Shown here: positions 14,155-60,100 of the stretch, piece by piece | Layout: each line of letters opens with the position of its first letter | Numbering within the stretch: position 1 is the first letter of the stretch | Assembly: GCA_016169945.1 (NCBI GenBank) | Contig: JADLSH010000099.1 | Location: 248,001 to 312,000 of the forward strand | DNA length: 64,000 nt | Direction of reading: 5' to 3' | DNA from: Trachythela sp. YZ-2020 | Taxonomy: Eukaryota; Cnidaria; Anthozoa; Malacalcyonacea; Clavulariidae | Translations under genes and position numbers: made by a program | Notes under the pieces: model-generated | Databases searched by the model: none | The model's input: the letters and a program-made list of their open reading frames with translations, nothing else | What the model was told of the DNA's origin: nothing

Positions 14155-14331
14155 TCTCAACTGTAGCGTCGAACTGAGAACGATGCAAAAATACTTGACC
14201 TGTCATCTTATAACTTCACGCCAGATGACTGCAATGCACTCGCTAAAACGTTATCATACGATGCTTACTTTAAGGAAGTTCGTTTCAACGACTGTTTACT
14301 GAGTGAAGATGCTTCCAAAATGCTATTATAC
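14155..14331 (+). pseudogene. LRRC45: LRRC45 exon 1 fragment (duplicate)
   Basis: These 177 bp align without a gap to 36862-37038 in exon 1 of the intact LRRC45 gene; about 160 positions agree by eye. The copy starts at TCTCAACTG, directly after a C-run, and stops just before a long CT microsatellite. The second codon after the start of similarity has become TAG (CAG in the parent). Beyond it the frame is open and reads KILDLSSYNFTPDDCNALAK like the parent. No introns of the parent fall in this interval, so retrocopy and DNA duplication cannot be told apart. The same-strand position 22 kb upstream of the parent suggests a local DNA event. Confidence 0.9.
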
Positions 14332-14344
14332 CAGCCTAGTCCCA

Positions 14345-14346
<2 letters not shown>

Positions 14347-14421
<75 letters not shown>
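14347..14421. repeat. CT microsatellite
   Basis: A nearly pure (CT)n tract of about 75 bp with one interruption (CTTC). It separates the LRRC45 fragment from a LINE fragment. Confidence 0.95.
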
Positions 14422-14424
<3 letters not shown>

Positions 14425-14461
14425 CCGTTAAATATTTTAATATCCAGCAATTGCTTTAATC

Positions 14462-15345
14462 CTGGGGGACTGCATGTGCATTACCGTGTAACTGCATTAC
14501 TAGAAATCACCGATAGGCTATATCATAACATTGATATTGGGGAGTTAAACGGAGTCGTCTTTCTTGATCTTAAGAAGGCATTCGACACAGTTACTCAACA
14601 AATACTACTAAATAAACTTAGCTGTTACGGTATAACGGGGACTGCCCACAAATGGTTTTCATCACACTTATCGAATCTTTCACAGTATTGCCAGGTAAAT
14701 GGAAATATCTCTCGAGCGTCAAACATGATCAGTGAAATACCACAGGGGTCAATTCAGTCTTGGTCCCTTGTTATTCCTACTGTATATAAATGACCTCCCA
14801 ATTGCTTAAATAATGCTAAGTGTAACATGTTTACTGGTGATACCCAAATTGATAGATCTAGTAATGACATAAATACTGTCACCAATGCACTAAATAATGA
14901 CTTAAAAAAATTTATCTGACTGGTTGACTGCAAATAAACTCAGTCTAAACACTCAGAAAACAGAATATAATTATGATTATAGGATCTTATCAATGACTAA
15001 ATTTAATAGAAACAGATCCTCCAATCTATCTTGGTACAGAAAAAATTAAACGAGTTAAAACGATTAAGTCATTGGGTCTAATGCTAGATGAGACGTTAAG
15101 TTGGAATGAACAGGCGAATGCAATAACAGCTAAAACAAACAAACGTTTTAATGTACTAAGAAAGTTAAGAGAATTCTTAGACCTTAAAACTTTACTAATT
15201 GCTTATAAAACATTAGTACAACCATACTTTGAATACTGTTCAAAGGTATGGGGCGGCCTCGGCTGATCACTACAGCGTTTACAAAACAGAGCTGCGCGTA
15301 TTATTACTAAGTGTGGATATGATGTCCGTTCCCATGTTCTTCTAC
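14462..15345 (+). pseudogene. LINE reverse transcriptase, broken
   Basis: The first segment (to 14793) has reverse-transcriptase motif A (VVFLDLKKAFDTV) and the PQGS block. A frameshift follows, and the catalytic FADDT motif appears as FTGDT, so the second Ala-Asp of the box is lost. A further segment at 15072-15266 has the family's C-terminal blocks (LGLMLDETLSW, LVQPYFEYCSKVW). Several stops and frameshifts separate these parts. This is a dead jockey/CR1-type non-LTR retrotransposon, 5' truncated. Confidence 0.8.
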
Positions 15346-21318: not shown

Positions 21319-24300
21319 CTACCAACGTTGATAAGTTGGAAAATCATTAGTAAATACACGAACCGTCTTGTCTTCTGCCAGCAAGCCCCAAAAAAACTTT
21401 TTCTTCCATCCATAACTGTTACAGTTCGAGCCACACTCTCTTACAAGATGATAAATACGACCGGAATGTTCTTGTATATCAAGATCTCCATTAATAGTCA
21501 GGCTACGATCTTCTATAGCAAAAAGGGTGCCTCCGTCATTCGACCTTCTCCAAATATCACACGCTTGTATTTTAACAATGAAACGTTTACCACGTTTGGG
21601 CGCTTCTGCACATTGCGTGCCACTTGGTTCAAGCCACGGGAATGGCGCCTTCCCTTCTAGATGCATTTTGCCAACCTGTTTATCACCAATTAAACCGAGT
21701 GACAATGGAAGAACTTTTACCAAAACGCTGTATTTCTCTAAAAGTTGAGCACAATTGTTCGTATGCTTTTTCCAGTCACTTTTTTGGCATTCTGAATTGC
21801 AATATCCTGCTGTAAAACATCTGGCACATTTCTTTAATTGGCCTTTTTTATGACAGAAAAAACAAATGTCCGTAACAATTTGCGATGGTGGCTCACTGTC
21901 TATTTCTATGTTATTTTTGAATATATTTTCAGTGCATTCTGCTTTTATGAAATTATCTTCGATTGAGAGAAAGCCAATAAGACAGTCATTAAGACTCGGA
22001 CGCTCACTACCAATTTTATCATTATGTGCGTTGCCTTGGTCAATACCAGGCCCTTCGTTGCCAAAAATCTGATTGGATTCAATAACCGACTGTGGATAAC
22101 CAGACGCCTTAGTAGTTGGTGTCACATGAATACCACCACATTTGTTTTGAAAGATTTTATTCCGAGAAACAAGACACCAAGCATTACCAGTTTTTGAAAT
22201 CCCAAGCCAACCGTTCTCAAAGATTTCATTTTCCTCTATGATTGCAAAGGATTTTTCAGAGAGATAAATCCCATGACGGTCATTATGAAAAATTTCATTT
22301 CGTGTTACTTTTGCTCTCCCGTTCATGACACCTACACCTATTTTCTTGTTATCATATATTTGACATCCCGTAACATCACACGTACCATAATTAACATCCA
22401 AACCCCATTGGTTACCGTGAAGTTTGCTGTTCTTTAGCACAAGATTTCCAGGTCCTAGAACTTTTAATCCAACAGACATGTTACCTGAAAATACAGAGTC
22501 CTCAACCTCGGCGTTCCCAGTCACCAACAAAGCGGCACTTTTGCAATTAACAAACCGAGTTTTCTTGACAATAAGAGTACCTTGTGACACAAAAGCTATC
22601 ATATCGTAATTGCTTGTGATAGAACATTCAGAAACTTTGACTGCAGACCCAGGAATGGTGCACCAGTTTCCAAGGTCGAATATGAAGGAAATGTTTACGG
22701 CAGCCATGAAGTTGTGAGAAAGCAAACCAAAATTACCAGCGAAATATAGTGTAACACCAAGATCAAGCGAGCTATCACCTACACCAACAAGAATAACATC
22801 ACCTAAGCGCAATTGTGTAGAAAGACGATACTCTCCTGGCTCGAGGACAATAATTTGCCTAGGCATATCAGAAACAGTTCCATAGTGCAACTGAGAAGGC
22901 AAAGAAACAAGTGAAGATACGTTATCACAAACATGGATGCATTGCTCTAAATTAGGAAATGAAGCTTTGAATGGTGCAAAGTTGTCAAAGATATTGCGAA
23001 CATGATAATATGCTAAAGCCGCAGCGCACACTGCATCCCACTTTTCATTCAAGCCGTGAAGAGCCAAGGCCTTCTTAGCATACCCTTTCCAACACTCAGG
23101 AGAATACTTGATGTATTCTTCAGCATCTTTTAGGGCATTCTTGTACTGCTCTAACTTAAGATAGGCAGAAGCACGATTGCTAAGCAGTTTAGGATCAAAT
23201 GAATCTGTTCCCTTGCTAATATCAATACAAGAGGAATATATTTCTATAGCTTCTTGGAAATTGCTTTCCATGAAGAGTTTATTACCTTCCAAGTGCATTT
23301 TTTCAATTTTTGATTTCATGGAATCATTAGCAGAGATTTCAGGAGTAGTAGGATTGCTTGTTTCAACAGGTGCCTTACAAGAATATTGAATACGCCTTCG
23401 AAGAGACTCTGACAGAGGAAACATGTGTGGAAATAAAACTTTCATCTTTTCCTCCGAAATCACGTTGCAACCCCAGTCAAGAATACGATTAGCAAAGTCG
23501 GCAACAGTTTTTGCCTGGCTACTAGAATTGTTCACATTCAAATGCAAAGCACATTCATAAACAATTCTCGCTACCTCTGGCAGAAACACCGTTTTCTCTT
23601 TTACATCACGGAAGATATCTAGAAGCCTCTCAAGATTTCTTTTAATTTCATGCGCATGCAAACACAACTTATGCCACTTGTAAAAGCGGGAAAAACTGGT
23701 TGGATGAAGAGAAGATCGATCGATATGCTCACCTACTTCACTTTCGAGAAGGATATCTGGAGATGGGCAAGTTGAGAAGGCAAAACACAACAAACGAGCC
23801 GCGTCAACAATGCTTTCCACTTTCTCTTCCGGCTTAAGATTTTCTCGAATAACCTCCTGGACTAACCGATGAACACTTAGAGAAGAGTTATGTGTTTTCC
23901 TAAAGAGTGAAAAGTCAGTCAGGAGTTTCAGGACTTCAAGAGAACCTAAAGAAGAGCTCACATGATCACAATATGCTTTGTCATCAACACGGGGTTTGCC
24001 GAGGTTGATTAGTTCTTTTTGAAGTTCATTGCGATTCATAAACGCAGAAGCATTGAGGAAACGAGTGGCGATCATCCCATTTTCATTCTTTCGAATATGT
24101 TCAAAGTTGAGAAGCCATGTTGTACGGACGGCCAATCGTTCTTGAGATGTTCCGTAAGGAGAACTTGCTTTTTTCTTGTTGAGCAGTTTAAGGGACTGTT
24201 TCTCGTACGATTCCAAATAGTCGGATAAGGTGCACTCAAGGGACACGATATAAGCACAAGCTTGTTCTAACGCCAATGGTAATCCACCAAGCTTTTGAAA

Positions 24301-27300
24301 TAAAAGATCTGCCATCACGTCTATATTAAAGAAAAGATAAATGATTAAGATAGAATAAAGAGTGATTAAATAATATATTATTTATATATTCTAAGAACTG
24401 GTTGAAAATCAACGGTATATACCGTAGTTGTATAGGTTTAGTTTTCACTATTGATTCTTGAACGCTGAACCAGTACTTGCTTTTTGATAACAGACGAAAA
24501 ACAAAATGTTTCTTTGAATAAGTCGTTGAAAATGTTGATAATGCTATAGTAGGAGTGCTACTTAATTTCAATTTTGACATTTGTATTATGAGGAATGGAC
24601 TCCAGCCCAATTGCCTCCAAAGAAACTGTAGTACTGCTCCTGGACAATCATAATCGGGAGTATTTTCACCAATATTTCGAAGCATAATGTTGTTGAATAA
24701 CGTACATACCGGATTGTAAGCTAACCTGTTTGTTCATTGCGAGCAATCCCAGTCCTTTTGAAGACGAAATTATTCGCCTCCTCAGAACCAAAGCTATCAA
24801 GTTTGAGACACCTGGATTCTTTGAAACCAGAAATATCTTCTTTCAATTCCCGCGGCGTTCTCCGTGTAGTTATAATGAGATGACCAAGGCACGCAGTGTT
24901 TGCTTGCCAGGATCCCGATACCAACTTCAGTAAATTTTGTGAAAGAATAGGCTCATCCATATCATCAATGATCATCAGCCATGGTTTTGTAATGCGTGAA
25001 AATACTGCTAAGGTTTTGGACAGTGTAGCATCAAGTGAGTCGTCATGAAGTGTGTTGAATTGCGCAGCTATATCATCAACGGAGGATTTTAACTTGACAT
25101 CGTCTTCCCCAGAAAACCAATAGATACCTCCTTGATAATAGTCTTTCCATTTGTGTATATATTCTGCAGTAAGACTTGTTTTTCCGCTTCCGCCTAGGCC
25201 AGATACGGCTGCTACGATTACTTTCTCTTCACCACTCGTATTCTCGTTCTCTAAAATATCTCGAAGCAAATCCAATTCAGATTCTCGACCACTGAACCAC
25301 TCAGTTTGCTTAGGCGCCATGAAAAGATATCGCGGTTCTTCTTCGTGTTTTCTTGAGATGGTCTCATACAAAGCGAACTGTCCGACTCTCAATTGCTCGA
25401 CATCTTGTTCAGTACATAGTTGCCTTTCTCTCAAATCTTCGATTTCCTTTGTCAAAGATTTCTCGATTGTTTCCAGGGAGTCTAAAAGTTTACTCTGTAC
25501 ACATTAGAAGAAAGAAGAAGCAATTAGTTGAAAATATGTTTATTCTGCCCACTGTTTCGGAAAAGCTTTTTAACGAATTATTAAGTAAACCAACATCTAT
25601 TTGTCCGACGAATACTGTAGTTTCTCTTCGGCTTGATTGCCGTAGATGAGTTATCTAAATTTAATGGGGCATAATCGATACTAAAAATCTCTTGATTCTT
25701 AAAATACCGTTTTTCGCAAATTTTACAAACTCACTGAAATGTTCATTCAGCCTCATTATTAATATGTATATTCCAGTCAATTTATAATGGGTTTGTGTTC
25801 AGTTTTGGCTGTTGCTCAAATGAAACTTGTTTTTGTTGACATTTTGACAATGTTTCATTCAAAATTTTGTTGATAATTGGCCAGTATTATTTCTGAAAAA
25901 TTATTTGATATTCTTTTAAGTTTGACTCGCCTTTATGTTGATTTTTATGAAAAAAACCTGCAGTAATGCAGCCTAGAGTATTGACAATTTATGGTGAACA
26001 GATTTGATCATTTGCCAGATCACATTTTTCTTTAAATTGATTGGCAAGTTGAATTCTATAATTCAATCTGATTGGTTGCTGCGGTGCAGAGCTTCAATCT
26101 GATTGGTTTAAAATAATGCGATTAACACTCAAGATGATGCGAGCAAAGCTCAAAATAGTGCGATTTGGGGATTAATCGCACTATTTTTGACCAATCAGAT
26201 TGCAAGAAATGCCATTGATTTCAAAATGAATATAATTCAGCATGAAACAGAAGTTAAATACGCAAAATTGTCAAGCTATAGCCATTACCAGGCACCATAA
26301 ACGTGTCAATGTGATAAACAAATGATTTTATGGTTGCTTTCGATAATACTATGAACAATGTATACCTGATTACACTCTACATCTTCTTTCCACAATTTTA
26401 CAGAGTCGCGAAGTTCAGCTAATTCAGTGTTGACTAGTTTCAGGAGTCCAGAATCAACTGATTGACCAAAACACAGCTCGAGACCTTAAAACAACATAAT
26501 AGTATTATAGGGATTAATATGGATGAGATTCTCCTTATTATCGTTCTCCTGTCCACTTAATAAAGTGAAATATGACAGTGTATCTCTTATTGAATTTCTT
26601 CAGCATGAGTCATCTAAAAAAATGGCTTTACAAATCTATTTCCTTTTTTCAGAAAATCATTGGATTTACTTTCTAATCGTTGAAAAGTATATCATTCGTC
26701 ACCATGCCACATAACATGAAACTTATATATATTATTATTCTAATTAGGCCTATTATAATATTCTATTTAAAAGTCAGTCTTTTAAAACAATAGAATAACA
26801 TATTTTACTTTTGGCCTTCTTTGAATCATGGTGGTTTATTTAGAAATACTTTTATTGAAATATTTTGAAACTTATTTTGTTGTGTAGCATCTTCCAAACA
26901 TTTTTACTCAGATTCTGAATTACTGGTAAGCCTTGGCCCATATAAGATGAAGGATATTTCAAATGTGATGATAACAGGTTGAAATCATAGCCGTTGTTGC
27001 AATAAATTCGAAGTGATTATATCTCTACGTTAAAAGAGATACTGTAAAAATTTTATCCTGTCATCTTCAATTCTATCTTAAATCTAAGCAATAGAATATT
27101 TATATACAATTAGAATAACATAATTCTCGTTCCAGATATACACTGCAAATATCACGCTGAATCCATGTTCGGAAAGCTTTAAGTTAGCATAAACTACCTT
27201 TTTGTTTCCAGCCATCAAGATCATCAAGCGTTCTCTTTTTCTCTGCAGGTGTCAGGTTGATATTATTTATTAAGGTCTCCATGTCTTTTAGAGCTGCTTG

Positions 27301-27819
27301 ATAAATTACGTCAGTCCAGTGAGAAAAGTTACAATGTGCCCACTCATTTCTAACGTCTGATCTAATTTTCTTTGCCATACCACCAGCTCCAGAAGCATGA
27401 AAAGGTTGAGCCTCAGCAACGACTGATAAAGCTGCAGACTCATCCATAGTTTGATCAAAACCAATAAAGCTAGCCATGGATGGTATGATAAACAACTTCG
27501 CTAAAGACATTGGATCTTTGACAGCATAATCGTAGTTGGATGGCTTACGTACTGCTAAATTGTTGTTGATACTTTTATAGTTCAGATTTGGCAATGTAGA
27601 AGGTGGCAAATTCTTTAAATGGCTTCCGAATGTCTGTTTATCAATCTTGTAAGGAGGTAGGAGCAGATTTTGATACCATATTGGTATATCATTTGCAAGA
27701 ACATCTCTCAATGCAGGAGTAAGAACTTTGGTCAGACATATACCGACAACCACCCATCTTCGTTCCTCATCAGAAACTGTATTAGGTCTTGCTCCACTAA
27801 CACCAACTGCAGTGGCCAT
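21319..27819 (-). CDS. NLR-like protein HEPN/NB-ARC/TPR/beta-helix/MYND
   Basis: Four exons: 27819-27198, 26484-26366, 25494-24726 and 24320-21319 (TAG). Phases are 1, 0, 1 and close exactly; the protein is 1503 aa. A TGA directly before the ATG fixes the start. Residues 1-208 resemble a DZIP3-type HEPN domain with the R-x4-H motif (RNEWAH, 157-162). Residues 248-300 look coiled-coil. NB-ARC follows: P-loop GLGGSGKTSL (346-355), Walker B WLMIIDDMD (419-427), LIITTRR (453-459), GGLPLAL (515-521) and the winged-helix motif HRLVQE near 655. TPR repeats are at about 843-944. Beta-helix (PbH1-like) coils rich in N-x-I-F and G-I/V are at about 990-1305. A MYND finger with all eight ligands is at 1323-1360. 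The last 140 aa are unrecognised. This is a STAND-class signalling protein, most likely an innate immune receptor or cell-death switch, by analogy only. Confidence 0.9.
24321..24725 (-). other. NLR intron 3
   Basis: This intron splits the NB-ARC region between the nucleotide-binding core and the GLPLAL helix. The 119-codon open frame inside it (24685-24326) has no family features and lies between a good donor and acceptor, so it is not counted as coding. Confidence 0.7.
25495..27197 (-). other. NLR introns 1 and 2, with palindrome
   Basis: Intron 1 (27197-26485) and intron 2 (26365-25495) flank the 119-bp exon 2. Intron 2 holds an inverted-repeat unit at about 26048-26235, with CAATCTGATTGG in both orientations and ATAGTGCGATT near the centre. 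This is probably a small MITE. Confidence 0.6.
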
Positions 27820-28310
27820 TCATACGAGTGATCTGAAGTAATATTAAACAAACATATCATTGAAGAAATATTTAAATTTAGGAAAGTAAATACATGTACA
27901 ATTGATTGATTTACATCAGTTGGTTGACAACAATCTTGAGTATAATATATGGATTAAATCCGCTCAAAATGGTATTTCACGCAATTTCGTAGCTACTACT
28001 TTTTTAGTGTGGAGTGGTAATAACTCGAAAAAGCTTTGAAAATCAAGGGAGCAGTCTAAATGTCTTATACATAGTGCTTGCACGGATGACGCTATTTCAG
28101 TGATGTAATATCTTTAAGCCAATCACTGCAGCTCTCTTAGAGGCATCACGAACCACATCACGAACCAAGTACGTTCTTTATTCGGTATAGATCATAGATC
28201 ACGTCAGATGATGTGTAAATCTTTTTCGCGCTTCAAAGCCCACTCCTCGCTCTGTTTACAACGGCAAACCACAGATAAAAGTGAGATGTACATAAAATGG
28301 GAGAAGATCG
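27820..28310. other. NLR upstream region
   Basis: The sequence TTACTTCAG just before the ATG looks like a splice acceptor, so a non-coding first exon further upstream is likely. No TATA box or other element could be supported. Confidence 0.4.
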
Positions 28311-28315
28311 TGACA

Positions 28316-28560
28316 CATAAAATATCGACACACACAAAATATGAACACACACATAAAATATCGACACACACACAAAATTTGAACACACACACAAAATATC
28401 GACACACACAAAATATGAACACACACACAAAATATGAACACACACACACAAAATATGAACACGCACACAAAATATGAACACGCACATAAAATATCGACAC
28501 ACACACAAAATATGAACTGCACACACATAAAATATCGACAGACACAAAAAATATGAACAC
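28316..28560. repeat. CA-rich minisatellite, 17-21 bp units
   Basis: About 13 units alternate between AAAATATCGACACACACAC and AAAATATGAACACACACAC, with variable CA counts. Open frames on both strands arise only from the repeat. Confidence 0.95.
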
Positions 28561-34743: not shown

Positions 34744-36789
34744 ACACTTCGGTGACATCAGTAATATCATCTGTAGCTACCGTTTTACTTCCGGTATAAA
34801 TATTAGTTTGTTGGAACATTTGTTTGTCAAGTGTGGAGATCTACCCGATTTTAACGTACAGTATTACATATAAAGAAACATTGATATAAAGGTTATGAAG
34901 CTGTTTGTAAAGTAAATTTTATTTAACTATAGTGTGTGTTGTACTATTAGTATATTCGCTATAAGTTGCTACTTTGGTGACAGCTAGTATCATTCTGTAA
35001 CACTCCATACCAATTTGAACTAAAACAACATGCATGTTTCACTTATATTTATACTGTTAGCCTAGGAATGAAATACTTATAGTTCACACGTCATGTTTTA
35101 ACGTCATTGTGTTTCGATTTTCGGTTTATACATTTTTCTTGTTTCATTATAAATAGTGCCACCCACACTATCATGTTACGCACATAATATGACGTTTTCA
35201 TAAAAGTAAACTCGCATAGCTAGATTAGTTCTATTTAACACTTTTAGCCAAATCATGACGCTTTAATTGGTCACTTGACACTATAAATCCTAATGGGTTT
35301 TCCGCCTCGCCTTTAATATCGCCTATAAAATACCTTCTATTAAAATACCTTGCTGTGTTTTGCGAATTTTCCAGACCAGACAGCACGTTGTTTGAAGATA
35401 AAAGTACATCATACCATTTTATGATAGTTGTAGATGACTGCGTTTCGGTGAAAATACTCCAACGCAAACGCGTGCCCCGCGAGAAGCGTTTACTCTCTCG
35501 ATTGTGTTGTTGTCATACGCTTCAGGTTACAAAAGCCGTTTCTCCTGCGCTGCGATTTGCGATTTTTCCCGACAAAACGGCAAACATTGTTGAGACTAAG
35601 TTTGCTTCATATCATTCATTATATTGCGTTTCAGTATAGAGGAGCTACAATGCGTATCTTGCGAGATATAGCGAAAAACATTTTAGCCGATCGCTTGCGA
35701 CAATTTGGCGTAGCTTAGCATGAATTTACGTCTCGGTCGTGTTACTCGTGTAGGTTCTGCGATATTTCCTGACTTTCTATTTCGCCGAAATAAGTTGAAT
35801 GCATAATATTCTGAAGGAGAAAGCGTTTTATAGACAAGTCTATTCCGTCTAAAGAAACTGAGTAATCCACATTTTGTACGTCAGATACCCGACTATTTCC
35901 AGATTTGAATCTGAATGTGAAAGTGAATATGAAACTGTAGATCGTAGAGCCGACGTTACTCCTCCCAACTGGGCCAGCCCGGTCTCTATATTATATAAAC
36001 CCAGTACTGCTTACATATGTAACTGTGTTACATATAAACAGTTTCACGAGAATTAGGGGGAACTGATATAAATTGAAATTCGTCATCTACTCGCCTTGTA
36101 CTCGGACGCGATAAAGCCGGAAGGCGGAAGTACCGCAAGTACGAAACGAAGAATTTGCGACGTTAGTACATAATTTGATACAAATTATCGAACTGCTTTC
36201 TGTACGTACCTGTGCTTACACCAAAATAGGTCTCGCCAGACGATTTACCGTATTTTTGACGATGTAAGATACCTCTTTAGTCTTTCTTTGAACAGTTTCA
36301 GTATTCTCGCATATTTCTCTTGCAAAACCACAAAAAAATAGCTCGCTCCAGTCTCCACTGCACCAACCTCGCGAATTCCTTGGCATACATTCTAGAATTC
36401 CTCAGTTTTCCCACAATTCTGCAATTTGCCTCGCCGAAGTTTTATAGACAACTATAAAATATATGACAAATTAAATTCTAAAATTCAAGATACCATGCTA
36501 AAAACAGCAAATATGATATAATATTTTAATACTCTTTGTTAAATTTATGACGATCAGAATACTGACATTACAATACTACATAATTTGATTATTTTTGACG
36601 ATGTCATTCTGAGAGATGTAAAATAGTGATTCTGACTTGCTAAATTTGTTGTAGATGTTGCTCAGTTGTGGTGGTCAAATGGTTGTTGTAAACAAAGTGT
36701 ATATTCTAAAATGCTGAAGATTTCAGAGGTTCTTAAGCGTTTGTTTTCGGTCTGTTAGATGATCGAGCAAGATATTAAAGTTATTAGAA
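34744..36789. other. Upstream region of LRRC45
   Basis: No gene or repeat end was recognised, and the short open frames have no domain. The last few hundred bases presumably contain the LRRC45 promoter, but no element could be supported. Confidence 0.4.
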
Positions 36790-39700
36790 ATGGAAGAGTT
36801 TTATAAACGCTATCTTCGAGTGTGCAAAGAGTGTCTTGTGTCTCCATTGGAATGTGTCATATCTCAACTGCAGCGTAGAACTGAGGACGATGCAAAAATA
36901 CTTGACCTGTCGTCCTATAACTTTACCCCAGATGACTGCAATGCTCTCGCTAAAACATTATCATACGATACTTATTTTAAGGAAGTTCGTCTTAACGACT
37001 GTTTACTGAGTGAAGATGCTTCCAAAATACTTTTATACGGTTTGCTTCGCAGTCGATCGCTCGAAACTATCGACCTCAAAGGCAACAATTTGCGTTGTTC
37101 TGGTGCCGAAGCTGTTGGTATTTTCTTGAAGAAAAACACTTCGGTTCGTTGTCTGCGTTTAGACTGGAATTCTCTGGGTCTGTGGGGCACTGGTGTAGGC
37201 ACCTTAGCTGAAGGCCTAGCTGTCAATCAAACTGTGGTGTTACTGGACCTGAGAAATAATCAAATATCACATGATGGGGCAACGGAGTTGGCTTCGTGTC
37301 TCAAAAGAAATTCAACACTGAAAGCATTAGACTTACGTTGGAATAATGCTGGTTTACTTGGAGGACGTGCATTTCTTACAGCCCTGCAGTATAATAAATC
37401 CTTAACATCGTTAGAGTTACAAGGTATTTAACCCATTATCTGGCAATGCGCCCTACTTTAGTATTTTACTCTGTGTAACGCCAGACGATTTTTTACTCGT
37501 AAGTGGTAGGGTACTGCCAGTTAATGGGTTGACAAAACTATCTGCCAGTGTCTCTTGTTAACCCATTAGCTGGCAATGCGTCCTACTTTAGTACTTTACT
37601 CTGTCTAACACCAGATGATTCTACTTGTCAGTGGTAGGGTACTGCCAGTTAATGAGTTAATGTAGTAGTTCACTGCACTTAATGGCCAGGCAAACATGCA
37701 ATATAACATTACTTATTATTGTCATAATATAATTTATTGTCATTTGCCAACATTGAAGGCAATTTTGAATAGGGCCCTGAAAAATTTAAATGAATATTTT
37801 ATCAAATATTTCCCCATTTTATACCCACCCTGGGAAACATTCTTGGGAAAACAAGTGTGCTTTTCGGTAGCAGTGACGTGTGCTTAATTACAAAATATTT
37901 TTGGCTGCAAATTTAGGTTGCCAACTAGACTTGCTCCAAGTTAGTCTCTTAAAGGGATTTTTATTGGGGAGTTATAAAGGATTGAAGAGTTAAAAGATTG
38001 GGGAGTAATAAAGGATACACAAAAATGCGGGCAGGAGGAAATTAAGACGGGAACGCGGGACGCGAGAAAATTGGGAGGGATTTTTATTGGGGAGTTACAT
38101 AGGGCACACAAAAATGCGGGCAGGAGGAAATTAAGGCGGGGTAACAGGCGACGGGAGGTGAGAAAATTGGGAGAGGAGAGACAGATTTGTGTCCCTTGCA
38201 GGAATTTGAATCCGATTTTAAATTCGGCACAAAAGTGAACTGACAAGTTTGTGCCTTGCGATACTGATATTTGACACCAGAACCTGTTGGCGCAGACATG
38301 AAAACATCTTGTTTAGAATGATATGTTTCTGCCACTTGCCTTTGCTGGCCTTTTGTAGTTTTTGTAGCCACATTTTGTCACTCCATGCACAATAGCATCC
38401 TTTATAGATCTCATTCTAAGCCTCAGACGAAAACAAACACTTTCAGTTCACCGCAAACTGTGATTATTTCCTCACTACCGATGGTACAGATGACAGCTTA
38501 TATTTAATCTATTTCCGAATAAACATCAGGGTACTGGTCCCGCCTGCGGTGGCAGTGCTGGCCACCACTCAAACCAATGTGGATTTTTCTACCTGGTACT
38601 AAAAAAGTATCAAATATGTCAAAAGTAAAACATCTGAAAGATACTATCGACAAATAAACCTGTTACAACATGTGAAATAATAACACTATAAAATTACTTG
38701 AAAGTATTCCTTATAATTTCTTCACACCTCAATTTGTGCATAAGATAGCTCAGTGCACAGTTTGAACCAAACTTGTTTATATGACTGTCCTGGATTCTCC
38801 TGTTCCTACCTCCCCTCCCCCCCTTTCCTGCTATGCCCACTAATACACTAGTAGACTATCACAAACATAATCATTACGGTGATAATGGGAGGGCATTTTG
38901 TTACTGATCTACTTTAGGTCATTTTTTAACCTTAACATCTACTTTTGGTGAAATCCTATGATATTTGCCCAAAATAATGATGGATCAATTAGATATCGGT
39001 CAGGTGTGCAATATTCATATCCATATTATATATTCATAGGAAACAACGTTCCTCAAGACACGCTTAAAGCAATTGCTGTTGCCATAAAGTTGAATGGTGA
39101 ACGAGAAACTGCACGCAATCAAGAGAATGCAAGAACAGTGAAAATGATGAGAACAATTGAAAAGATTGAATTTGAAAATACAACGCAGGTATACTGTAAA
39201 CCACGTACCACTACTTCGTTATAATTACTGTACTAATAGACAATCATCCTGCTTCCCCATCGACCCCATGCATGTCTGTGAACAGGTTGGCAATTAATAT
39301 TCCAAAATTTACATTTTCGCAAGGCTACAAAAACCTTCTGTTTCTTGTCAGCGCGCGTCATTTTTAACTGCGCGTCAACGTTTTTTTTTGGCAAATACGG
39401 TCCATCAATATCCTTGCAAAATGAAGTACTCTTAAATAAAAATGTTATTCTTAACTATTAAACCTGCAAATTTGGTGACAGTTTATCATTAAAAGCATAA
39501 AAAATCACTATACACTTTAAAAAAAATAGAAAAATACTCGCCGATTTCTCCAAGAAAGCGCCTCCTTATTAACTCTTAAGAAAAAAGAAGGGCGAAAAAA
39601 AAGCCGCGTCGCCGCGTCAATTCTGCACAAACCCACTGACCAGAAACAGAATAGTTTTGGCCTAATGATTTAATTCAACTGAACAAAACTTTTGGCCGCA

Positions 39701-41827
39701 AGCAAGTAACTGTGATTTTACATTATATATACATTACGACAGATATAGAGCAAGAATGTAACACATTTACATTTCATTAATTTGTACTGTGCAAACACCT
39801 TCTACTATTTATCATATCGAACGAGATGCCGAGAAAAATCTTGATATTTACCGTTACACCATATTCGCTGGCATCACTCCCATCTGATATACCGAACTTG
39901 CGGTTAATGCTCAGCAACTGGACTCTGTAGCTCAGTTGGTTAGAACGATGCACCGGAATCGCAGGACCGCAGGTTCAATTCCTGCCAGAGGGCCTAAGTT
40001 GCATTTTTCGCAACTGCTTCTGGCTAGGTCTAAAAAAATGTATATAAATTACCGTTCGAGTATTCCACCTGCAGTCGCCGCCGCTTATACTGTATGCAAA
40101 TCCTTTTTGCCAACTCGATTTTTGCATGTAAGCGGATTTTGCATGTAAGCGGATTCGTTCCCAGGACGCGCATCCTGGAAAATCTATTAGCATAATACAA
40201 AATGATAAAAAATACCAAAGCCAGTTTCAACTTAGCAACATGCGACAACAGATTTTAAGAAAGGATAGAAAATAGCTTTCTAAAATTGTACTTATCAATA
40301 AACTAAAAATATACAAGGTAACTGTTCTTATTTTTGGAAATAAAAATCAATTAATGTTTGCTTTTTGGCAACATTTCAAAATTTTTATTTGCATGTAGGA
40401 AACTTTTGCATATAAACGACATTTCTTTGCATATAAGCGGATTAAAAAGACTAATTTTCTTAATTTAAAGTTTGGTTTTGGATTCCCAAAATCTTTGAAT
40501 ATAAGCGACTTTTGCATATAAGCGACTTTTGCATATAAGCGACTTGCATATAAGCGGCGGCGACTGTACTAACACCTTCTATTATTTATTCTATCGAACG
40601 AGATGCCGAGAAAAATCTTGACACTTTACACTATTCATTATTTGCTTAATAAGATTGGTAAACGTATTTCAGGTCTCCATGCTACAAGATAAATTAGAAG
40701 AGCAGAGTAAAGTCAATGAAAAGCTTACGAAATCAAGTCATAGTAAAATAAAGCAACTTAAAGAATCGCTGGATAAAAATAAAACTTCTTCTCACGAGAT
40801 CTCCAAAGAGCTGCAATCAACAAAAAACGAGCTGCTGATGAGAGATCAGAAAAGTTCAGCTTTGCATGGCTTGGTAAACGAATTGAAAAACGAATTATCT
40901 GCAGAGAAAACAAAAGGCAAACAACTTGAAAGTGAGGTTCAGCTTTTGAAGGAAAACGGATCAAAACTGCAGGGGAATGTTGATGAACTAAAAACGGAAG
41001 AAGAAGAATTACAAAAAGTAATCAATAAATTGGAAAATGATATTGCTAGAATAAACGTCGAACACAAAACCAAGCTGAAAGAGATGGAGTCAAAACACGA
41101 GGAGTCCATTGCATACAACCAGGGTGAACACGCAAGTGAAGTGAAAAATTTACACTCAAATTTTAAAGATAAAGAGTCAATAATGAAAAGTAAAATTGAA
41201 AGCCTTGAGAAAGAGAAGACGAATGCTGAAGAGAAGATCAGTCAACTCAAATCTGAAGTAATGTCTAATAAATTGAAAGCCGAAGAAGATATGTTTAACT
41301 TAAAAACACAACACAAGCATGAGCATCTCCTAAGCTCCAAACAATACGAAGAAAGAATAAGCGCTTTGCAAACCTCAAGAGATGAACAGCATGTTCAAAT
41401 GAGTAAATATCTCAACCAAATTGCCGAATTGCAAAAGGAACTAAATCTGAAAGGGAAAGAGTTATCTGAGCTTAAAGAGGAAAGAGATGCTGCTGCTAAA
41501 GAAATGCATCGAAAGGAAAGTGACCATAAGACAGAAATAGCTCGCTTAAAAATGGATCTCGAATCGGAAAAGAAGACACAAGATAATCTAAGAGATAATA
41601 TATCAAGCATGGAATCAAACATGAAGGAGAATGGCAGAAAACAGAAGGACTTGATTGGCAGTAAAGATCGTGAAATTGAGTGCCTTGAAGAAAAGCTACA
41701 AGCAAGAGAAACCGATCTTAAAAGACAGCGTGAAGACGAGATTCGAAGAGCAGATCTTCTCGAGTCCGCCATTTTTACATATGTGAACAGCACAAGGTCT
41801 TCGAGACCACCTTCCCCTTCCAAGTGA
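36790..41827 (+). CDS. LRRC45: LRRC45, centriole-linker LRR/coiled-coil protein
   Basis: Three exons: 36790-37423, 39040-39188 and 40673-41827 (TGA). Phases 1 and 0 close exactly and give 645 aa; vertebrate LRRC45 is about 670. An in-frame TGA 30 bases upstream fixes the ATG. Exon 1 opens MEEFYKRYLRVCKE and carries leucine-rich repeats with LDLKGNNLR, LDLRNNQISHDGA and LDLRWNNAGLLGGRA, all close to the vertebrate protein as I remember it. The GNN of the last repeat spans intron 1. Exons 2 and 3 are a long coiled coil of Glu/Lys-rich heptads, ending RADLLESAIFTYV and a Ser-Pro tail as in the family. The known role is in the fibre-like linker that holds centrosomes together and in early ciliogenesis. 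Introns 1 and 2 contain MITEs and an interrupted SINE. No polyadenylation signal was seen. Confidence 0.95.
37429..37659. mobile_element. Two tandem MITE copies in LRRC45 intron 1
   Basis: Copies at 37429-37530 and 37559-37659 share about 85-90 percent of bases. Each has inverted ends, TAACCCATTAGCTGGCA and TGCCAGTTAATGGGTT. Copy 1 begins within a few bases of the splice donor. Palindromic units like this can form a hairpin in the pre-mRNA. Confidence 0.85.
37954..38172. repeat. Tandem duplication, ~95-123-bp unit
   Basis: Unit 1 (37954-38076) and unit 2 (38077-38172) both start GGGATTTTTATTGGGGAGTTA and share AAATGCGGGCAGGAGGAAATTAA. Unit 1 has an extra segment. Confidence 0.8.
38175..39039. 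other. Rest of LRRC45 intron 1
   Basis: No repeat or exon was recognised apart from the acceptor TATTCATAG at its end. Confidence 0.4.
39790..40630 (+). mobile_element. tRNA-derived SINE, split by a MITE
   Basis: The tRNA-like head is at 39920-39994: A box TAGCTCAGTTGGTTAGA, B box GGTTCAATTCC, and ends GGACTCTG and CAGAGGGCC. It is followed by GCAACTGCTTCTGGCTAGG and a tail. The same unit in reverse lies at 47735-48025. Comparison shows that this copy is interrupted between CCACCTG and CTAACACCTTCTA by the MITE at 40070-40567. The motif CGAACGAGATGCCGAGAAAA occurs both before (about 39824) and after (about 40592) the unit, so the SINE is part of a tandem arrangement. It lies in LRRC45 intron 2. 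Diverged pairing in the acceptor stem argues against a working tRNA gene. Confidence 0.75.
40070..40567. mobile_element. MITE with CAGTCGCCGCCGCTTATA ends
   Basis: The left end CAGTCGCCGCCGCTTATA pairs with TATAAGCGGCGGCGACTG on the right. Subterminal arrays of GCATATAAGCGAC (right) and GCATGTAAGCGGATT (left) repeat several times. It is inserted into the SINE described above; the copy at 47735-48025 shows the site without it. Confidence 0.8.
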
Positions 41828-48100: not shown

Positions 48101-51100
48101 AAAAATTTAGGGGGGGGTGAGCGACGGTGCGTAGTGCCGTGCAGCAGGGGTCTGGGGGCACAGTTGGCAATGGGGGTAAGGGGGCGAAGCCCCCAGAAAC
48201 TTTTGAGATCTTTGGTCTTATTTAGTTCAAAATCCTTGTTTTTAGTCTTACTTAGTTCAAAATCTTTAACTCAATCACACTACTGTCATTTATCCCAATG
48301 AGCATTTAAATTTTTTTGTGGGGGTGCAAATTTCTCTAGGTGGGGTGGGAAAACTTTTTTGGGGGGTGCAAAATATTTTTTGGGCGGTGCGCACCCCCCC
48401 GCACCCCCCCAGAAAATCCGCCTATGCTTGTACTTCTATAATGCTTTATGCCATTAAAAAGAGCGTAAAACATTTGCACAATATAATCGACTGGAATTGC
48501 CTGCAGTTGTGTAACTTAATGCTTGCCCGGGACAAGTATATAATCATTACGGGCAGGTAGAAGTTTCTTCTTGGTTGCCTGAGCGGGCAAGTTGCTTTCT
48601 GTTTCAGCTTTGTCAGAAATAGCTGGCCATCTCTAAGTTGTTATCCCCAAGTACAGTATTGAATGAGTAAAATGTAGACCAGTTGGCAATTAACTATTCA
48701 TTCTGCTCAATAATCTGAAAAATGTCAATAAATTAACATGGCATGACGACCATTGTACGACGAACATTGTGCGACGGACATTGTGCATTAACTTAAATTC
48801 AACTTCAATTCTTAAGGAGAATAAAATAATGGTGATTGGTGTAGATTGGTGTTAAATATAATGCAAATTGTATTTTATTTTTAAAATCAATAAAAGATCC
48901 CAGCAAATTACTTTTAAACCACACATATTATATATAAGAAAATGTTATTAGCTAACGAGTAACGTTTCGTTGTTTACAGTACAACATCTTAGAGCATTTA
49001 TACATGGTATGTTATATATATTTACAAAATAGAATCATGTTTTTAAATTACGAAAACGGTTACAATATTCAAAAGAACGAATGAACATAAGGAAACGGAA
49101 ACAACTTATCAGTAATCATGTTGTTAGTGTCAGATTAATTGGCAGAAGGTTAATGTTAATTGATTAGTAATTAAGAGTTAATAATAAAACTAGAATAAAT
49201 CCAGAGGATTTTAGCGTTATTTAGCGGATTTTAGCAAGTTATATTAGCGTTAAGGACTGGGTTAATTCTGGATAATAATAGGCTTTCGCGAATAAGAAGG
49301 TCAAATTCAGAAGTACCCGATGAAAGGATCTTAAAGTCAGACACAGCGACCGGGTGTGTATGAATATGCTTATGAGCGAGAATGGCAGACATAGTTGAAG
49401 CAGCGCGTATTTTGCCAGTCTTGTGAAATTCCCATATGCTCTGAAATACGTGTGTGAATGCGTCGGCGTGTTTGGCCAACATACAATGCACCACAGCATT
49501 GACACTTGAACTGATACACAACGTGTGATTTCAAGGCAAAGGGAATTTGGTCTTTGAATGGAAAGAAACTAGAAAGACGGCATGAAGGACGGAAAACAAC
49601 CCGTATAGAGATATGTGGATAAGCAGAAGAGAGAATTTTAGAGAGTTGTGAGCGAATCTGTAAGCCATGATGTCCGGTGAAAGGAAGGCAGAAATAGATA
49701 ATCATCTTAGAGCATGTGTGAACCTTGTCTTTGGAGTTGTAAATCTTGTCAAGGAACAACTTAGTACAACTATCTGTGAGTGCAATAGGGTATCCATTAG
49801 CAGAAAAAATCTGCTTAAATTTCTCCATTTCAGCGTGGAAATATATATAAGAAGAACAAATATTGAAATATCGAGATATAAGAGACAAAAGTAGACCTTT
49901 TCTGTACATCATAGATTCATAGCAATAAAGCTGTCAAAGTTTGTAAACAATCCAGTGGAAGTACATTTATGATGTACGGAAGTAGAGAATGAACCGTTTG
50001 AACGCATTACGTCAACGTCGAGGAAAGGAAGAGAGGAATTGCTTTCAAGCTCATGTGTGAATTTGATATTAGGATGTTTGGAATTGAGATAAGAAAGAAA
50101 GGGAAGTACGTGGTCACGTGATTGAAAAATTAGGAAGCAATCATCAGCATAGCGACGATGGAATATTGGCTTAAAGTTAGTAGGGCAGTCAGTTAACCAA
50201 GTTTTCTCATGGAATGATAGGAAAATGTTAGCGAAGAGTGGACCAAGCGGTGAACCCATTGCCACGCCATCAACCTGCTCGTATAAAACACCATCAAATA
50301 AGAAATGACATTTTTTACAGATAAGTTGAGAAGTCGAGTAAATTCATCAACTGAGAGCCAATGAAAGCGTGCAGTATTAGAGAAACACTTATTTACAATT
50401 ATACTAATGGTTTCGTCCAATGGTATATTAGTGAAAAGAGACTTAACATCAAAACTTGCCATTACAACATTGTTAGTATTAAAGGTTATGCTCATGCAAT
50501 TCGTTAACAAATGCAAAAGTATCAGTTATAGTATAGGAGTTAGTAGAGAAAGGACTGAAGAAGTGGGACAAGAAACTTGGCAAGTTTGTAAGCATGAGTA
50601 CCTACAGCAGAGATAATAGGTCTACATGAAAAATTAGGTTTATGTACCTTTAATAGGCAGCCCGTATAAAATACCTGGTCTAGAGCCAATTGACACAGTT
50701 GTCATTGTAGTAAGTTGTTTATTGCTGGGCTCTTTTATTCATTTTTAAAATAAGACTTCCGCCTGGTGTATCAATAGCTATACCAACAGTATCATGCTTA
50801 CTGCAATCCTTTTCTTCAAATTTTGTTATGTGAACCAAAGCTAGACCTAATGGCAAGTGAATTCTATTCAGGGCAACCAGTTTTCATGTCCAGCTTGCCC
50901 TGATCACAAGTGGTCAAAAAAGTTAAGTTACACCACTGTGTCTCTGAGTATACTAAATTTTGGGCACCTCCCTCAATACCCAGAGCGCTGCACAGGAAAT
51001 CCGAAATCACAGGATCGCAGGTTCGATTTCTGACAGAGGGCCTATAGTCGCAACTGCTCCTGCTTAGGATCACTGGCATCTAGGCTGATGCGATATATCG

Positions 51101-54100: not shown

Positions 54101-57100
54101 TGTTTGAAAAATAAGATGGCCTAGATGGTTAAAAAGGCCCATCAATGGCCCAATATTATATTTTTGTTTGATAAATGCCCTGTCAAATCCAAAATTTGGA
54201 TTTGATATGCAAATTGGCACCCCTCCTGCACCCCCTTGGCCAAGGCTCCCCCCTGCACCCCCCCAGTAAATCCATCCCTGACACTTGCTATACAGCTCCT
54301 TTGTGTTAACCTACAAATTCTTCAGACAACGAGCATTCTCTATAGTTCGAGTTAGCGTCATTAATTTTCCATCTCGCTCTCTGCAGCTCTTTTTAGTCTT
54401 ACCAACAATTTCACGTTGTTTGACGGTTAACTCGCGAGTAACAACGTTTTAAATATTATTTTAGTTTAAAGTAAGGCTCGTCTTTCTTTGCTTTGAAACT
54501 CGGTAAGCGGAAACAGGAAATGACTACAACAGAGAACATGGGTAAAACTAGTTTAGAAAATCGTACGTCAACATCGATAAAACGTACGCTAACTTGGTTA
54601 TAAAGCGTACGACATTTCTCAAGCATTTTTAACCCCTGAAAGCATTCTACTTAATTATTTTGTCCAACGCCAGACAATTTAGGGCAAAACTCTTTCGCTT
54701 ACTACTTTTTATTGTATTGTACTTACAGATTTTGTAAAGAATTATGAAATGAAAATCATTATTTTGAACTTTTCCAGGGGGGTGCGCACCCCTCCTAGCC
54801 TTGACCAAGGGGGGGTGCAGGATTGGTGCCAATTCCTATATCAAATCAAATTTTGGATTTGACAGGGCATTTATCAAACAAAAATATAACATCGGGCCAT
54901 TGATGAGCCTTTTTGACCATCTAGGCAATCTTATTTCTAAAATATTTTATGACAAGTTAACTCCCTTGACCCTGTAGGGGGTCCTCAGTGGCGATTCATC
55001 CTTCCTCGGTTGCCGACCACCCCCTGCTTCATGACCAAAGCCCACTTAGCACCCCACCCCCCCCCCCCATCAAATCAAGCTGGATCCGTCCCTGATTACT
55101 TTTCTCATTCACCTACTGTACTTTGTTTCCAGACTGTGCAGAAAGGAAAGACAAATACGGTGTTTGGCATGTGGTTTCTCGACCCACCGTTCCAGGTAAC
55201 GAATCATATGATTTTGTACAGTAGATACTTCGTTTGTTATTCCTAGTTCGATGATTATTTGTTCCTAGTTTTGTAACACATTTTATCATTAGGCAACTTA
55301 ACGTTTCAACAGTCAAAACAATAAGCATACTTTTACGTTTTGGCTTTACTCGTGGCTAGCACGTGTTCGTTAATTAGTATGAATTAAAGAGTGAGTATCA
55401 TGTTTATAAGTTGATAAATACAACATATAAACACCGTTAGAACATTTTCCTTGAGGTTTTTAAGCAAATTATAGTTGTTCATAGTTGAAACATGACTCAA
55501 TGCTGCCGGTGTAACGGAAATGGACGGTGTAGAGGATGTATTTGTGCTAAGAATAACCGGGTTTGTACAAACTGTAAGCCAGGAAAAGACAAACGATGTG
55601 AAAATCAAACAACGGTTCTGCCAAGTTTAACTCAAGATGGATCCCCAACTGCTCAAGTACATGAGCCAAGCCTAAATCAACAGCAAGTTCTTGTTGAAGA
55701 AACAACGACTATAGCTGATCAAAATCCGAGTGTACGACTATTAGAAACAGAACAGCTGCCAGATTTTGTTCCTGTACAGCTTGCAACGTTTAAATGGGGA
55801 GAAATTGAAGGAGAAGCGTTTGTTCATGATATTCAAGAAAGTTATAACGAAATAGTCCATTGGAGGCGTAATTTGTTTAAAATTCCATCTGGACAAGCGG
55901 GTAAATCGTTTGTGCGTGAGCTTACTCGAATGTTTCAATCTTAAGGCAATTTTCCATTACGGTCGCTTTGCCCGCGCGGGCGGAGCGACCATGTTTCAAC
56001 TTCCGCTGTAGGTGTCTAGCATGAGATTTTTTTGTCCGCTTTACACCTCGCGGACACGCCTGAAAGTTGAACTAAAATCAACTTTCTTGGCGTGCCCGCG
56101 CGACTAATTATTCACATGATTCGAAGCGGTCGTTTCGCCCGCGCGGGCAAAACGAATGAATGGGGACATTAATGACCTCCTAGATGAGGGTTGTGCTATG
56201 CAACAACGATTAGGCAGACAATATAAGCAACGATCATGTGAGCATACTGCCAGAGTTTTTGCGAAGCTGATGATGCAGGGTAAAGTAAGAGCAGCGCTTC
56301 GGCTGATTTCAGAAGACAACAATGGAGGAATTCTATCCTTAGATAGCCGTGCTCTTCCCGACAACCCTGAGACTGTCAGAGAATCCCTTTTGAAAAAGCA
56401 TCCACCTGGTAGACCCCCCATACCATCAGCCATAGTTAGTGGAGATGTCAACGTAGAACCACATCCAGTCATTTTTGATGGAATTGATGAAGATTTAATA
56501 CGGAATACAGCCATTAAAACAGAAGGAAGTGCAGGGCCATCTGGTCTTGATGCAGCGGCTTGGCGACGTCTCTGTACATCATTTAAATCATGCTCTTCTG
56601 ATTTATGTCACGCTTTATCTATGGTTGCAAGAAGAATCTGTACCACTTTTGTTGATCCATCAGGTTTAGAAGCATTTGTTGCCTGTCGTCTTATCGCGCC
56701 CGATAAATGCTCTGGAGTACGCCCAATTGGGATTGGAGAGGTGTCTCGTCGAATCATAGGTAAAGCGATTTCTAAAGTCCTTGGTCATGATATCCAAGAA
56801 GCTACAGAAGCTACAGGTCCAGACATGTGGTGGACATTTGTCAGGCTGGTAGGTAGGTAGGTAGGTAGCCACTTCAACTAATTGATTGATTTCCAAGTGG
56901 GACGTGATTTAAAACTACAAATATTTACAAATGAATAAAAAAAAGTACACACAAACTATATACAAAATCAATTATATTACTTATAAGTATAATTATCAAT
57001 TATTTATTAATCAGGCTGGCATTGGCATTAGAGATGTTGCTATTAAATATGGACAAAGATTCGCTATTTCTAGCTTGTTCAGACAAAGAATTCCATATTT

Positions 57101-60100
57101 TTGGTCCTCTAAAACTTTTTTTAAGATATTCAGTTTTCGGACGCGGAAGGAAGAGAGTAGAATCTGATCCTCGTAAATTATGATGGTGGACTGTATTTGA
57201 CATATTAAAAATATCATTTAGTTTAATCGGTGCCATATTGTGCAAAACCTTATACATGAGCCTGGCTGTAATCTGAGCCCTCTGTTCCTCCAGGATTTTC
57301 CATCCAAGAAGACCAAGGGCCAGACTTGATTGACCATGCTCATTTTTACAATTCATTATAATTCTGGCACTTCTATTATGAAGCTTCTGTAGTCGATTTG
57401 AAAGAGTAGTATTAATTGAGTCCCAGACTTCACAACAATAATCAAAATGAGGTTGGACAAGCGCATAGTAGACAGATTTCAACGTGTCTTGATCCGTGTA
57501 TTCTTTAATTCTTTTTAAGGCGCTAATACCGGCAGATATTTTACTCGATATATGATCAATATGATTGTTCCATGCTAAATTTTCGTCCAGTTTAACTCCA
57601 AGAGCTTTTGTTACTCGAACTCTTTTTATCGGCTCATCTCCAACGAAAACATTGGGTTCTGAACTCAAGTTTTTAATATAGGGAGAGCCGATCAAAAGGT
57701 ATTCAGTTTTGACAACATTCAGACAGAGTTTATTTGCTGGAAGCCACCCCTTGACATTAAGGAGATCAAGATTCAGGGTCCGCTCCACTTCTTCAATAGA
57801 TTTACCACTTGCTGTTATATTCGTGTCATCAGCAAATAATCGAGTAGTTGTAAACTGGAGACAATTAGGCAAATCATTAATATATATTAAGAATAGGAGC
57901 GGGCCAAGAATCGAGCCCTGCGGTACTCCACACTTTACTGTTCTTGGGTTTGAAAGTTTACTATTTACATAACATACTTGTAGACGGTCAGTAAAGTAGG
58001 ATTTACAGCAGTGCATGCGATGCACCAAGTGTTTGAAGGTGGTGACGCCGAAGGTGTTATTTTAGTGGATGCTACCAATGCTTTTAATAGTCTAAATCGT
58101 CAAACTGCACTGATCAACATCAAGAATCTTTGCCCTGCATTATCGAAAGTATTGATCAATACCTATAGACAGCATATTCCACTGTTCATAGATGGAGAAT
58201 CAATTTTTGTCAAAAGAAGGGACTACACAAGGAGATCCCCTGGCAATGGCAATGTATGCTGTTGCCATTACACCACTGATTTATCGCCTTGTCGAAGAGA
58301 AGCTGAAGCAAGTCTGGTTTGCCGATGATGCTTCTGCTGCTGGGAAACTAACTGGCATTAGAAATTGGTGGAATAACGTGACAAAGATTGGTCCGGAATA
58401 TGGATATTTTCCTAATGCAAGCAAAACATGGCTTATTGTGAAGGAAGAGCACCTTGAAGAAGCAAAGCAGTTATTTCAGGACACTGGAGTAAAGATTTCT
58501 CATGATGGAAAAAGACATTTGGGATCAGCAATTGGATCGCGTCCCTTTGTAGAAAGCTTTGTTGAAGAGAAGATACCGCATATACCGCATTCACTCATGG
58601 CATCAAGAGTAAATGGATATACCTGGCTCGGACATCCCCGAATATCGACCATTTGCTATCACCACTTGAAGAAGTTATACGTTGCAAGTTCTTACCCGTC
58701 ATCACAGGGCAAAATGTATTCACCGATAACCTTCGCAATTTGATGGGATTACCAGCACGCCTCGGGGGACTAGGTGTTATTGATCCTTCTCAAAAAGGCT
58801 CCATCTACTATGAAAATTCTAAATCAATTACAACGCCACTTGTTGATGTCATTCTAGATCAGGCGAGAGTATGCCCTACAGAGATTACCAAAGCTCAAAT
58901 CAACGCGAAAAATCATCTGCGCAATTCGAAAACAGCAAAACAGCACGAGAAAGTTGATGCAAGTCAGATAATCGACAAATTGTCCCCAAATTTACAGAGA
59001 TCGATAGAAATATCTTCCGAGAAAGGAGCATCTACATGACTTACTACGCTCCCGTTGTCTGACCATGGATCCACCCTTCACAAAGGCGCCTTCCGGGATG
59101 CTCTGTGTCTGAGATATGGATGGATTCCTCAGCAACTTCCTTCTCGTTGTGTTTGTGATCAGAAATTTTCACTAGAACATGCTCTAAGCTGCTCACGAGG
59201 TGGTTTTCCCTCAATTCGACACAATGAGATAAGAGATATAACTGCTGAATTCTTGACTGAGGTTTGACTGGTTTGTCACGGAGTTGGTACTGAGCCACGC
59301 CTACAGCCTATAACCGATGAAGTGTTTTCATATAGATGGATGGTGCTCGACTTGTAGCTGAAAGTTTCTGGGGACGTGATCGGCAACGTACATTTTTTGA
59401 CGTTAGGGTTTTTAACCCTTTAGCACCGAGCTATCGCAACACATCTCTCTCCCAGTGCTATCGTAGAAATGAGCTTGAAAAAAGAAGAGCGTACGACGAA
59501 CGAATCGGAGAAGTAGAGCATGGGTCATTCTCTCCCCTTGTCTTTTCAACCGCGGGTGGTATGGGTACCACTGCAAACGTGGTGTATAAGAGAATTGCAT
59601 CTTTGATTGCTGATAAACATGGCAAACCGTACAGTAAGACAATCAACTGGATGAGATGCAGACTCAGTTTTTCACTGTTACGATCAGCAATTATGTGTCT
59701 ACGCGGAGCTAGATCTTCGCTTCATCGTCCGATTTGCTCCTTTGAAGGAGAGATTGACCTGGCTTTGGTGGAAGGACGGGCTTCTTATTGAGAAACTCTT
59801 TGGTACAATATACTTTAATACTTATAACATGAATTATTTTTTTTATTGTAGATACAGACTATTTATACAAACATAACTGATGGTTTTAGACGTTTTATTG
59901 AAGATATATTTACATATTTAATAATAAGAGTATCATGCAAGTGATCATTTGCACGATTGTGTTTATATTTTATGTTTACATCCGATTATATCTCAAAAAT
60001 ATGCGTGTGCACAGAGGGAGAATGTAGCGATAAGCATCTTACGTGTTTTCATGCTGTTCGCCTTCAAAATGTGGAACTCGGAGAATGATTCCGGAGCGAA

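Follow-up and report, generated by a model that had tools for sequence, protein, structure and literature searches.

We analysed a 64-kb stretch of DNA from the anthozoan Trachythela sp. YZ-2020 (contig JADLSH010000099.1, positions 248,001 to 312,000), hereafter the window, which carries on its minus strand a gene resembling those of the nucleotide-binding, leucine-rich-repeat receptors (NLRs). The predicted protein joins a HEPN-type head, an NB-ARC domain, a tetratricopeptide repeat (TPR) domain, a right-handed parallel beta-helix, a MYND zinc finger and a conserved C-terminal domain. In agreement with the first-pass annotation of the window (four exons with closing phases), its four exons span 6.5 kb, have GT..AG boundaries throughout and are spliced in frame to give 1503 residues plus a stop codon. 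The features are listed below in window coordinates; conservation was counted in an alignment of the gene with 124 relatives, in each case over the rows with letters at the column.

27198..27819, minus strand: exon 1, N-terminal HEPN-type domain, residues 1-207 (splice join; profile-profile match to DZIP3-type HEPN)
27331..27351, minus strand: motif R157-N-E-W-A-H162-C, the HEPN Rx4H motif and putative ribonuclease (RNase) site (conservation in relatives)
26366..26484, minus strand: exon 2, residues 208-247, start of the linker, probably a coiled coil
24726..25494, minus strand: exon 3, residues 248-503 and the first base of codon 504, remaining linker and most of the NB-ARC domain
25177..25200, minus strand: P-loop GLGGSGKT, residues 346-353 (K352 in 70 of 70 rows)
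24961..24978, minus strand: Walker B LMIIDD, residues 420-425 (D424 in 74 of 74 rows)
21319..24320, minus strand: exon 4, from the end of the NB-ARC domain (GLPLAL, residues 516-521) to the stop codon, included
23824..24069, minus strand: DUF7779, residues 588-669 (27.0 bits, exactly at the curated cut-off)
22996..23310, minus strand: TPR domain of co-chaperone (HOP/STI1) type, residues 841-945 (structure match, clamp-like residues)
21913..22938, minus strand: right-handed parallel beta-helix, residues 965-1306 (Pfam, predicted fold)
21751..21864, minus strand: MYND zinc finger, residues 1323-1360 (zf-MYND, 30.6 bits against a cut-off of 22.7)
21322..21735, minus strand: conserved C-terminal domain, residues 1366-1503 (12 invariant columns in 13 copies)

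From the N-terminus, the order is hence HEPN-type head, linker (residues 208-300, probably a coiled coil), NB-ARC (335-543), DUF7779, a helical region, TPR, beta-helix, MYND and the C-terminal domain. A model drawn from genomic sequence alone, with exons spread over 6.5 kb, might have fused two adjoining genes, a reading we consider extremely improbable. In fact, 21 of the 97 matches in a protein search with the predicted protein span 98% or more of the query, Dendronephthya LOC114531345 being the best of them (66% identity across 100% of the query), and the complete order recurs in a predicted clam protein (P0136). In three paralogues (L014, L015 and L018) the linker end, the NB-ARC domain and the entire C-terminal half form a single uninterrupted frame, while in two others (L010 and L012) exon 4 is preceded by counterparts of exons 1, 2 and 3 with their order kept. 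Because of these full-length matches, single-frame paralogues and conserved exon order, we judge the predicted gene model sound. Some of the full-length matches, e.g. P0019 and P0022, lie on contigs of 4.8-5.3 kb, about the length expected of a transcript; these contigs are presumably transcripts and give a further hint in favour of the model. The annotated architecture, one gene encoding HEPN, NB-ARC, TPR, beta-helix and MYND, is therefore right, and we saw no sign of separate genes.

The NB-ARC domain was recognised by Pfam with 29.8 bits against a cut-off of 23.5, and its P-loop, Walker B, TTRR and GLPLAL motifs are intact, as annotated for the first, second and fourth of these; in the rows covering them, these motifs and an MHD-like histidine hardly vary. 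DUF7779 follows at the position where, as we assume, STAND proteins (signal transduction ATPases with numerous domains) carry a winged helix. On these domain matches the protein classifies as a predicted STAND NTPase of the NB-ARC type. The bacterial NB-ARC TPR proteins of the FxSxx-COOH system (NF040586) have a similar NB-ARC and DUF7779 core, since the FxSxx_TPR model spans this region in the relative P0001 (E 9e-48), but with 163 bits against a cut-off of 300, and head and tail differ. No leucine-rich repeat (LRR) family was present among the 19 Pfam families reported at E up to 0.1. Since LRRs are missing and a beta-helix occupies the sensor position, the protein is NLR-like in layout but is not a canonical NLR of the LRR type. 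Canonical animal NLRs (NACHT and LRR) and plant NB-ARC-LRR proteins have the same layout of effector, nucleotide switch and variable sensor, whereas here the TPR, the beta-helix, MYND and the tail stand in place of the LRR.

For the beta-helix, Beta_helix (best stretch 1105-1237, E 4e-23) and NosD were both above the curated cut-off, so that the helix of about 300 residues read in the first pass is borne out, and the proposed Pfam search recovered both it and NB-ARC. The matches are to carbohydrate enzymes and tailspikes, and the helix is predicted to fold like carbohydrate epimerases, lyases and phage tailspikes. The mannuronan C5-epimerases AlgE4, AlgE6 and AlgG and PL6-like enzymes share the right-handed parallel beta-helix; in contrast to them, the helix is here embedded in a STAND protein, and in 20 paralogues D, E, H, K and R are absent from all 24 invariant columns. 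Near its start the helix has an E that is almost invariant and an invariant Y. Judged on the invariant columns of these 20 paralogues, conserved catalytic acid/base residues were not found, a composition that would suit the helix to binding rather than to catalysis; the earlier idea of sugar binding fits this fold, with glycans as a putative ligand class. In the MYND finger, which had been annotated with all its zinc ligands, C1323, C1326, C1335, C1338, C1344, C1348, H1356 and C1360 are indeed all present and nearly invariant, giving the eight ligands (C7H) that we take to be the MYND pattern. The C-terminal domain, in the copy of this gene, matched no Pfam family; the domain also ends the clam protein P0136.

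The HEPN assignment of the first pass held at the level of profile-profile homology, with the Rx4H motif in register, but not at that of Pfam, where scans of the whole protein and of exon 1 by hmmscan gave no HEPN family at its cut-off, HEPN_Swt1 alone being listed at E 0.02 to 0.08. Neither scan showed the DZIP3-type family PF18738, and in a genome search none of the 112 PF18738 matches listed lies at this gene. We aligned with hhalign a profile of the family N-termini (25 sequences) to one of 12 of the 20 fetched DZIP3-type HEPN domains, obtaining a score of 31.4 (E 2.9e-4 for a single comparison, hhalign probability 40%) against 19.2 for the reversed profile and 24.0 for the best of 200 column shuffles. 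In this alignment R157-N158 (R-N-E) and H162 were in register, with one gap between them, which supports a predicted homology of the head to HEPN. All 26 rows share R157, N158 and W160, and H162 is kept in 26 of 27 rows; the remaining row has gaps directly before this column.

A search with the head of P0001 returned 18 proteins, P0001 included, and the Rx4-6H motif, present in the head, is also retained in P0133, P0135, P0136 and P0137. P0133 carries the head, with intact motif, on an NB-ARC core with WD40 repeats, and P0135 (the gene prediction LOC116296514 of Actinia tenebrosa), which could be a run-on of two adjoining genes, carries an intact copy C-terminal to NB-ARC and Roc-COR. Reused on different switches, the head behaves like a transferable effector. 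The head might instead be an RNA-binding or dimerising adaptor without nuclease activity, as the missing Pfam recognition at cut-off and the inactive HEPN versions given in passages of PMC3710099 would allow; as the homologues that cover the motif retain R, N, W and H across three architectures and from octocorals to clam, we regard this as unlikely. RNase activity of the head may be expected by analogy with the HEPN domains described in parts of PMC3710099 and PMC9646362.

Of the TPRs in the first-pass annotation, one short domain of co-chaperone type is recognisable: the segment matched a HOP/STIP1 structure with E 6e-20, while all the Pfam TPR models stayed below their own cut-offs in this protein. 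Its TM-score with HOP TPR1, normalised by target length, was 0.80-0.83, and its nearest relatives are HOP/STIP1, SPAG1 and RPAP3. From HOP TPR1 we took five positions (K/R, N, N, K, R), presumably the carboxylate clamp that grips the tails of Hsp70 and Hsp90. Clamp-like residues, H being allowed at the first site, were present in 86 of the 116 rows with all five letters; among the other 30 are Dendronephthya P0027 and a group resembling it in pattern, as well as the three bivalve rows. The gene itself reads H-N-N-K-K, hence it shares with HOP/STI1 TPR1 the fold and most clamp-like positions, but differs in having H and K at two of the five and a single TPR domain within a receptor-like protein. 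These similarities, together with relatives annotated as Stress-induced-phospho 1, STIP1-like or HSOP1-like, could indicate a regulator of proteostasis or stress whose main function is the Hsp70/Hsp90-type TPR, and no immune receptor. We think this quite unlikely, since the TPR alone speaks for such names, the clamp is degraded in the 30 rows mentioned above, and the family is large, expanded in clusters and fast-evolving in its C-terminal half, which would be unusual for a chaperone.

The ratio of nonsynonymous to synonymous substitution rates (dN/dS), pooled by paralogue group and with the single pair C130b excluded from the ranges, was 0.23-0.35 for residues 508-830, 0.28-0.39 for the TPR, 0.33-0.68 for the beta-helix, 0.13-0.27 for MYND and 0.30-0.60 for the tail, with no domain above 1. 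In four groups the beta-helix exceeded residues 508-960 by factors of 2.20 (1.51-3.20), 1.42 (1.08-1.90), 1.76 (1.26-2.55) and 1.88 (1.36-2.60), where the codon-bootstrap intervals are too narrow because pairs within a group share history. The factor was not significant in group C22 (1.26, 0.87-1.83) and pointed in the opposite direction in the pair C130b (0.56, 0.29-0.94). In the three genes with both exons 1 and 3, dN/dS was 0.41 for the head, 0.32 for the NB-ARC exon, 0.22 for residues 508-830, 0.27 for the TPR, 0.56 for the beta-helix, 0.21 for MYND and 0.45 for the tail. The sensor hence evolves faster in most paralogue groups. In windows of 40 codons, three of four groups peaked at residues 950-989 (1.20, 0.88 and 0.77; 0.52 in the fourth), where the value of 1.20 depends on a low dS and the stretch concerned overlaps a conversion-like patch.

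The paralogues L021 and L027 are 96-100% identical in DNA at residues 508-867, 90% at 868-927 and 57-77% from 928 on, a pattern found by the criterion used in 1 of 406 pairs, pairs with too few sites being skipped. They are a recombinant pair, one signalling half with two sensor halves, although an assembly error may possibly have produced the pattern. L010 (contig C371) and L011 (contig C389) are near identical in gene and flanks and are possibly two haplotypes of one locus. Precisely, they share 96-100% in all the other scored windows, flanks included, with 85% and 91.5% at residues 965-1044; there, L010 is 98% and 95% identical to the gene of the window, a conversion-like patch. A second exchange patch joins L010 with L012 (residues 845-924, 97%) within the TPR, so that exchange is not restricted to the beta-helix.

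This TPR patch is one reason to ask whether the beta-helix could be a rigid spacer or oligomerisation scaffold, with the ligand read by the TPR, MYND or the C-terminal domain and the higher dN/dS reflecting relaxed constraint. The pooled dN/dS below 1 and a C-terminal domain about equally fast (0.30-0.60) would agree with it. Conversely, the chimera break and one conversion-like patch fall at or just before the beta-helix, the top dN/dS window (0.77-1.20) lies at its N-terminal end in three of four groups, and its asparagine/glycine ladder is invariant while the remaining positions vary. We consider the spacer rather unlikely.

In the 578-Mb genome searched, the gene has at least 53 matches, clustered on several contigs, where a match can be part of a gene and some may be alleles. 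A stop-ridden relative (G000:C371:91871-94518, including L019) lies about 175 kb off on the same contig, hence the family leaves pseudogenes too. In a tree of 52 sequences, made by a quick method with midpoint root and with some joins flagged as unsafe, the paralogues fall in several clades alongside genes of Dendronephthya or Paramuricea, which indicates that the main subfamilies are older than these lineages. Among named organisms, Dendronephthya gigantea (Octocorallia) and Paramuricea clavata provide the closest relatives. The search of other cnidarians for the same order, proposed in the first pass, gave full-length relatives in Dendronephthya and in stony corals (P0061, P0079 and P0080). 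Outside the cnidarians, the clam Mya arenaria has a predicted protein of 1639 residues (P0136) with head, NB-ARC, DUF7779, TPR, beta-helix, MYND and tail, and a partial Mytilus protein covers DUF7779 to tail. Shared ancestry, with loss in other lineages, explains this anthozoan and bivalve occurrence most simply, transfer or contamination being possible. The gene belongs to a real, old and expanded family.

The first-pass suggestion of an undescribed system stands for the sensor half only. HEPN heads and TPR tails are in print: according to passages of PMC10236652, TPR predominates in the NB-ARC proteins of corals and DZIP3-like HEPN heads occur on many NACHT/NB-ARC proteins, and passages of PMC8260672 count 17 to 83 HEPN-NACHT proteins in anthozoans. 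Large NLR-like gene sets in anthozoans appear in parts of PMC8260672 and PMC4083563, HEPN-NACHT/NB-ARC proteins of the pearl oyster, whose Rx4-6H motif has N following R, in PMC9646362, and DZIP3 HEPN fusions to TPR, NACHT and others in PMC3710099. These proteins, as far as the passages describe them, resemble ours in the Rx4-6H head with N after R, the STAND switch, the expanded genes and, in some, the TPR; our HEPN is instead divergent, outside the listed PF18738 matches, and to the published TPR, LRR, WD40, ankyrin and other partners our gene adds beta-helix, MYND and a conserved tail. No open-access paper among the matches listed, judged by titles, abstract starts and term counts, joined a beta-helix or MYND to an animal NLR-like protein, and supplementary tables may hold earlier sightings. 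The new element is the sensor half.

Elsewhere in the window, translations show a leucine-rich-repeat-like frame (36763-37431) with a partial near-copy (14167-14793) beside reverse-transcriptase-like sequence, and downstream of the former a coiled-coil-like frame of 401 residues (40622-41827), perhaps of the same gene. A short tandem array with units like acacacacaaaatatgaac lies at 28310-28560. Frames resembling pieces of retroelements, also judged from translations, lie at 49370-50343 and 55489-59791.

We lean, with modest confidence, towards an intracellular STAND receptor of the NLR type, with NB-ARC as switch, beta-helix as sensor, HEPN RNase as output and TPR and MYND as docking sites for partners. 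NB-ARC and DUF7779 would form a nucleotide-driven switch, held off until a ligand is sensed and then oligomerising. Variable sensing would fall to the beta-helix together with the conserved C-terminal domain; given the fold that the helix shares with carbohydrate epimerases, lyases and phage tailspikes, the ligand would most likely be a polysaccharide or other repetitive microbial surface. Oligomerisation would gather the HEPN heads into RNase dimers, and the RNA cut in this way would give RNA-level defence or shutdown of the cell. The TPR might dock Hsp70 or Hsp90 tails, keeping this large protein folded and competent, and the MYND finger may recruit a peptide-bearing partner. An immune role is suggested by the architecture, the expansion and the evolution of the sensor. 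To our knowledge, the ligands and outputs of anthozoan NLR-like genes are largely unknown.

More tentatively, and doubtfully as a whole, the family could be a class of immune receptors of anthozoans and bivalves in which the beta-helix of a catalytically dead polysaccharide enzyme replaces the LRR as sensor and detects glycans of microbes or symbionts within the cell, recombination creates new specificities by joining one signalling half to different helices, and clustered HEPN domains cut RNA. The gene offers two discrete parts that can be tested, the beta-helix, whose fold suggests glycans, and the HEPN head with its nearly invariant putative RNase site, and the natural swap of sensor halves between paralogues lends itself directly to an experiment on specificity. 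That a clam shares the architecture suggests that this receptor design, which is not of the LRR type, is old.
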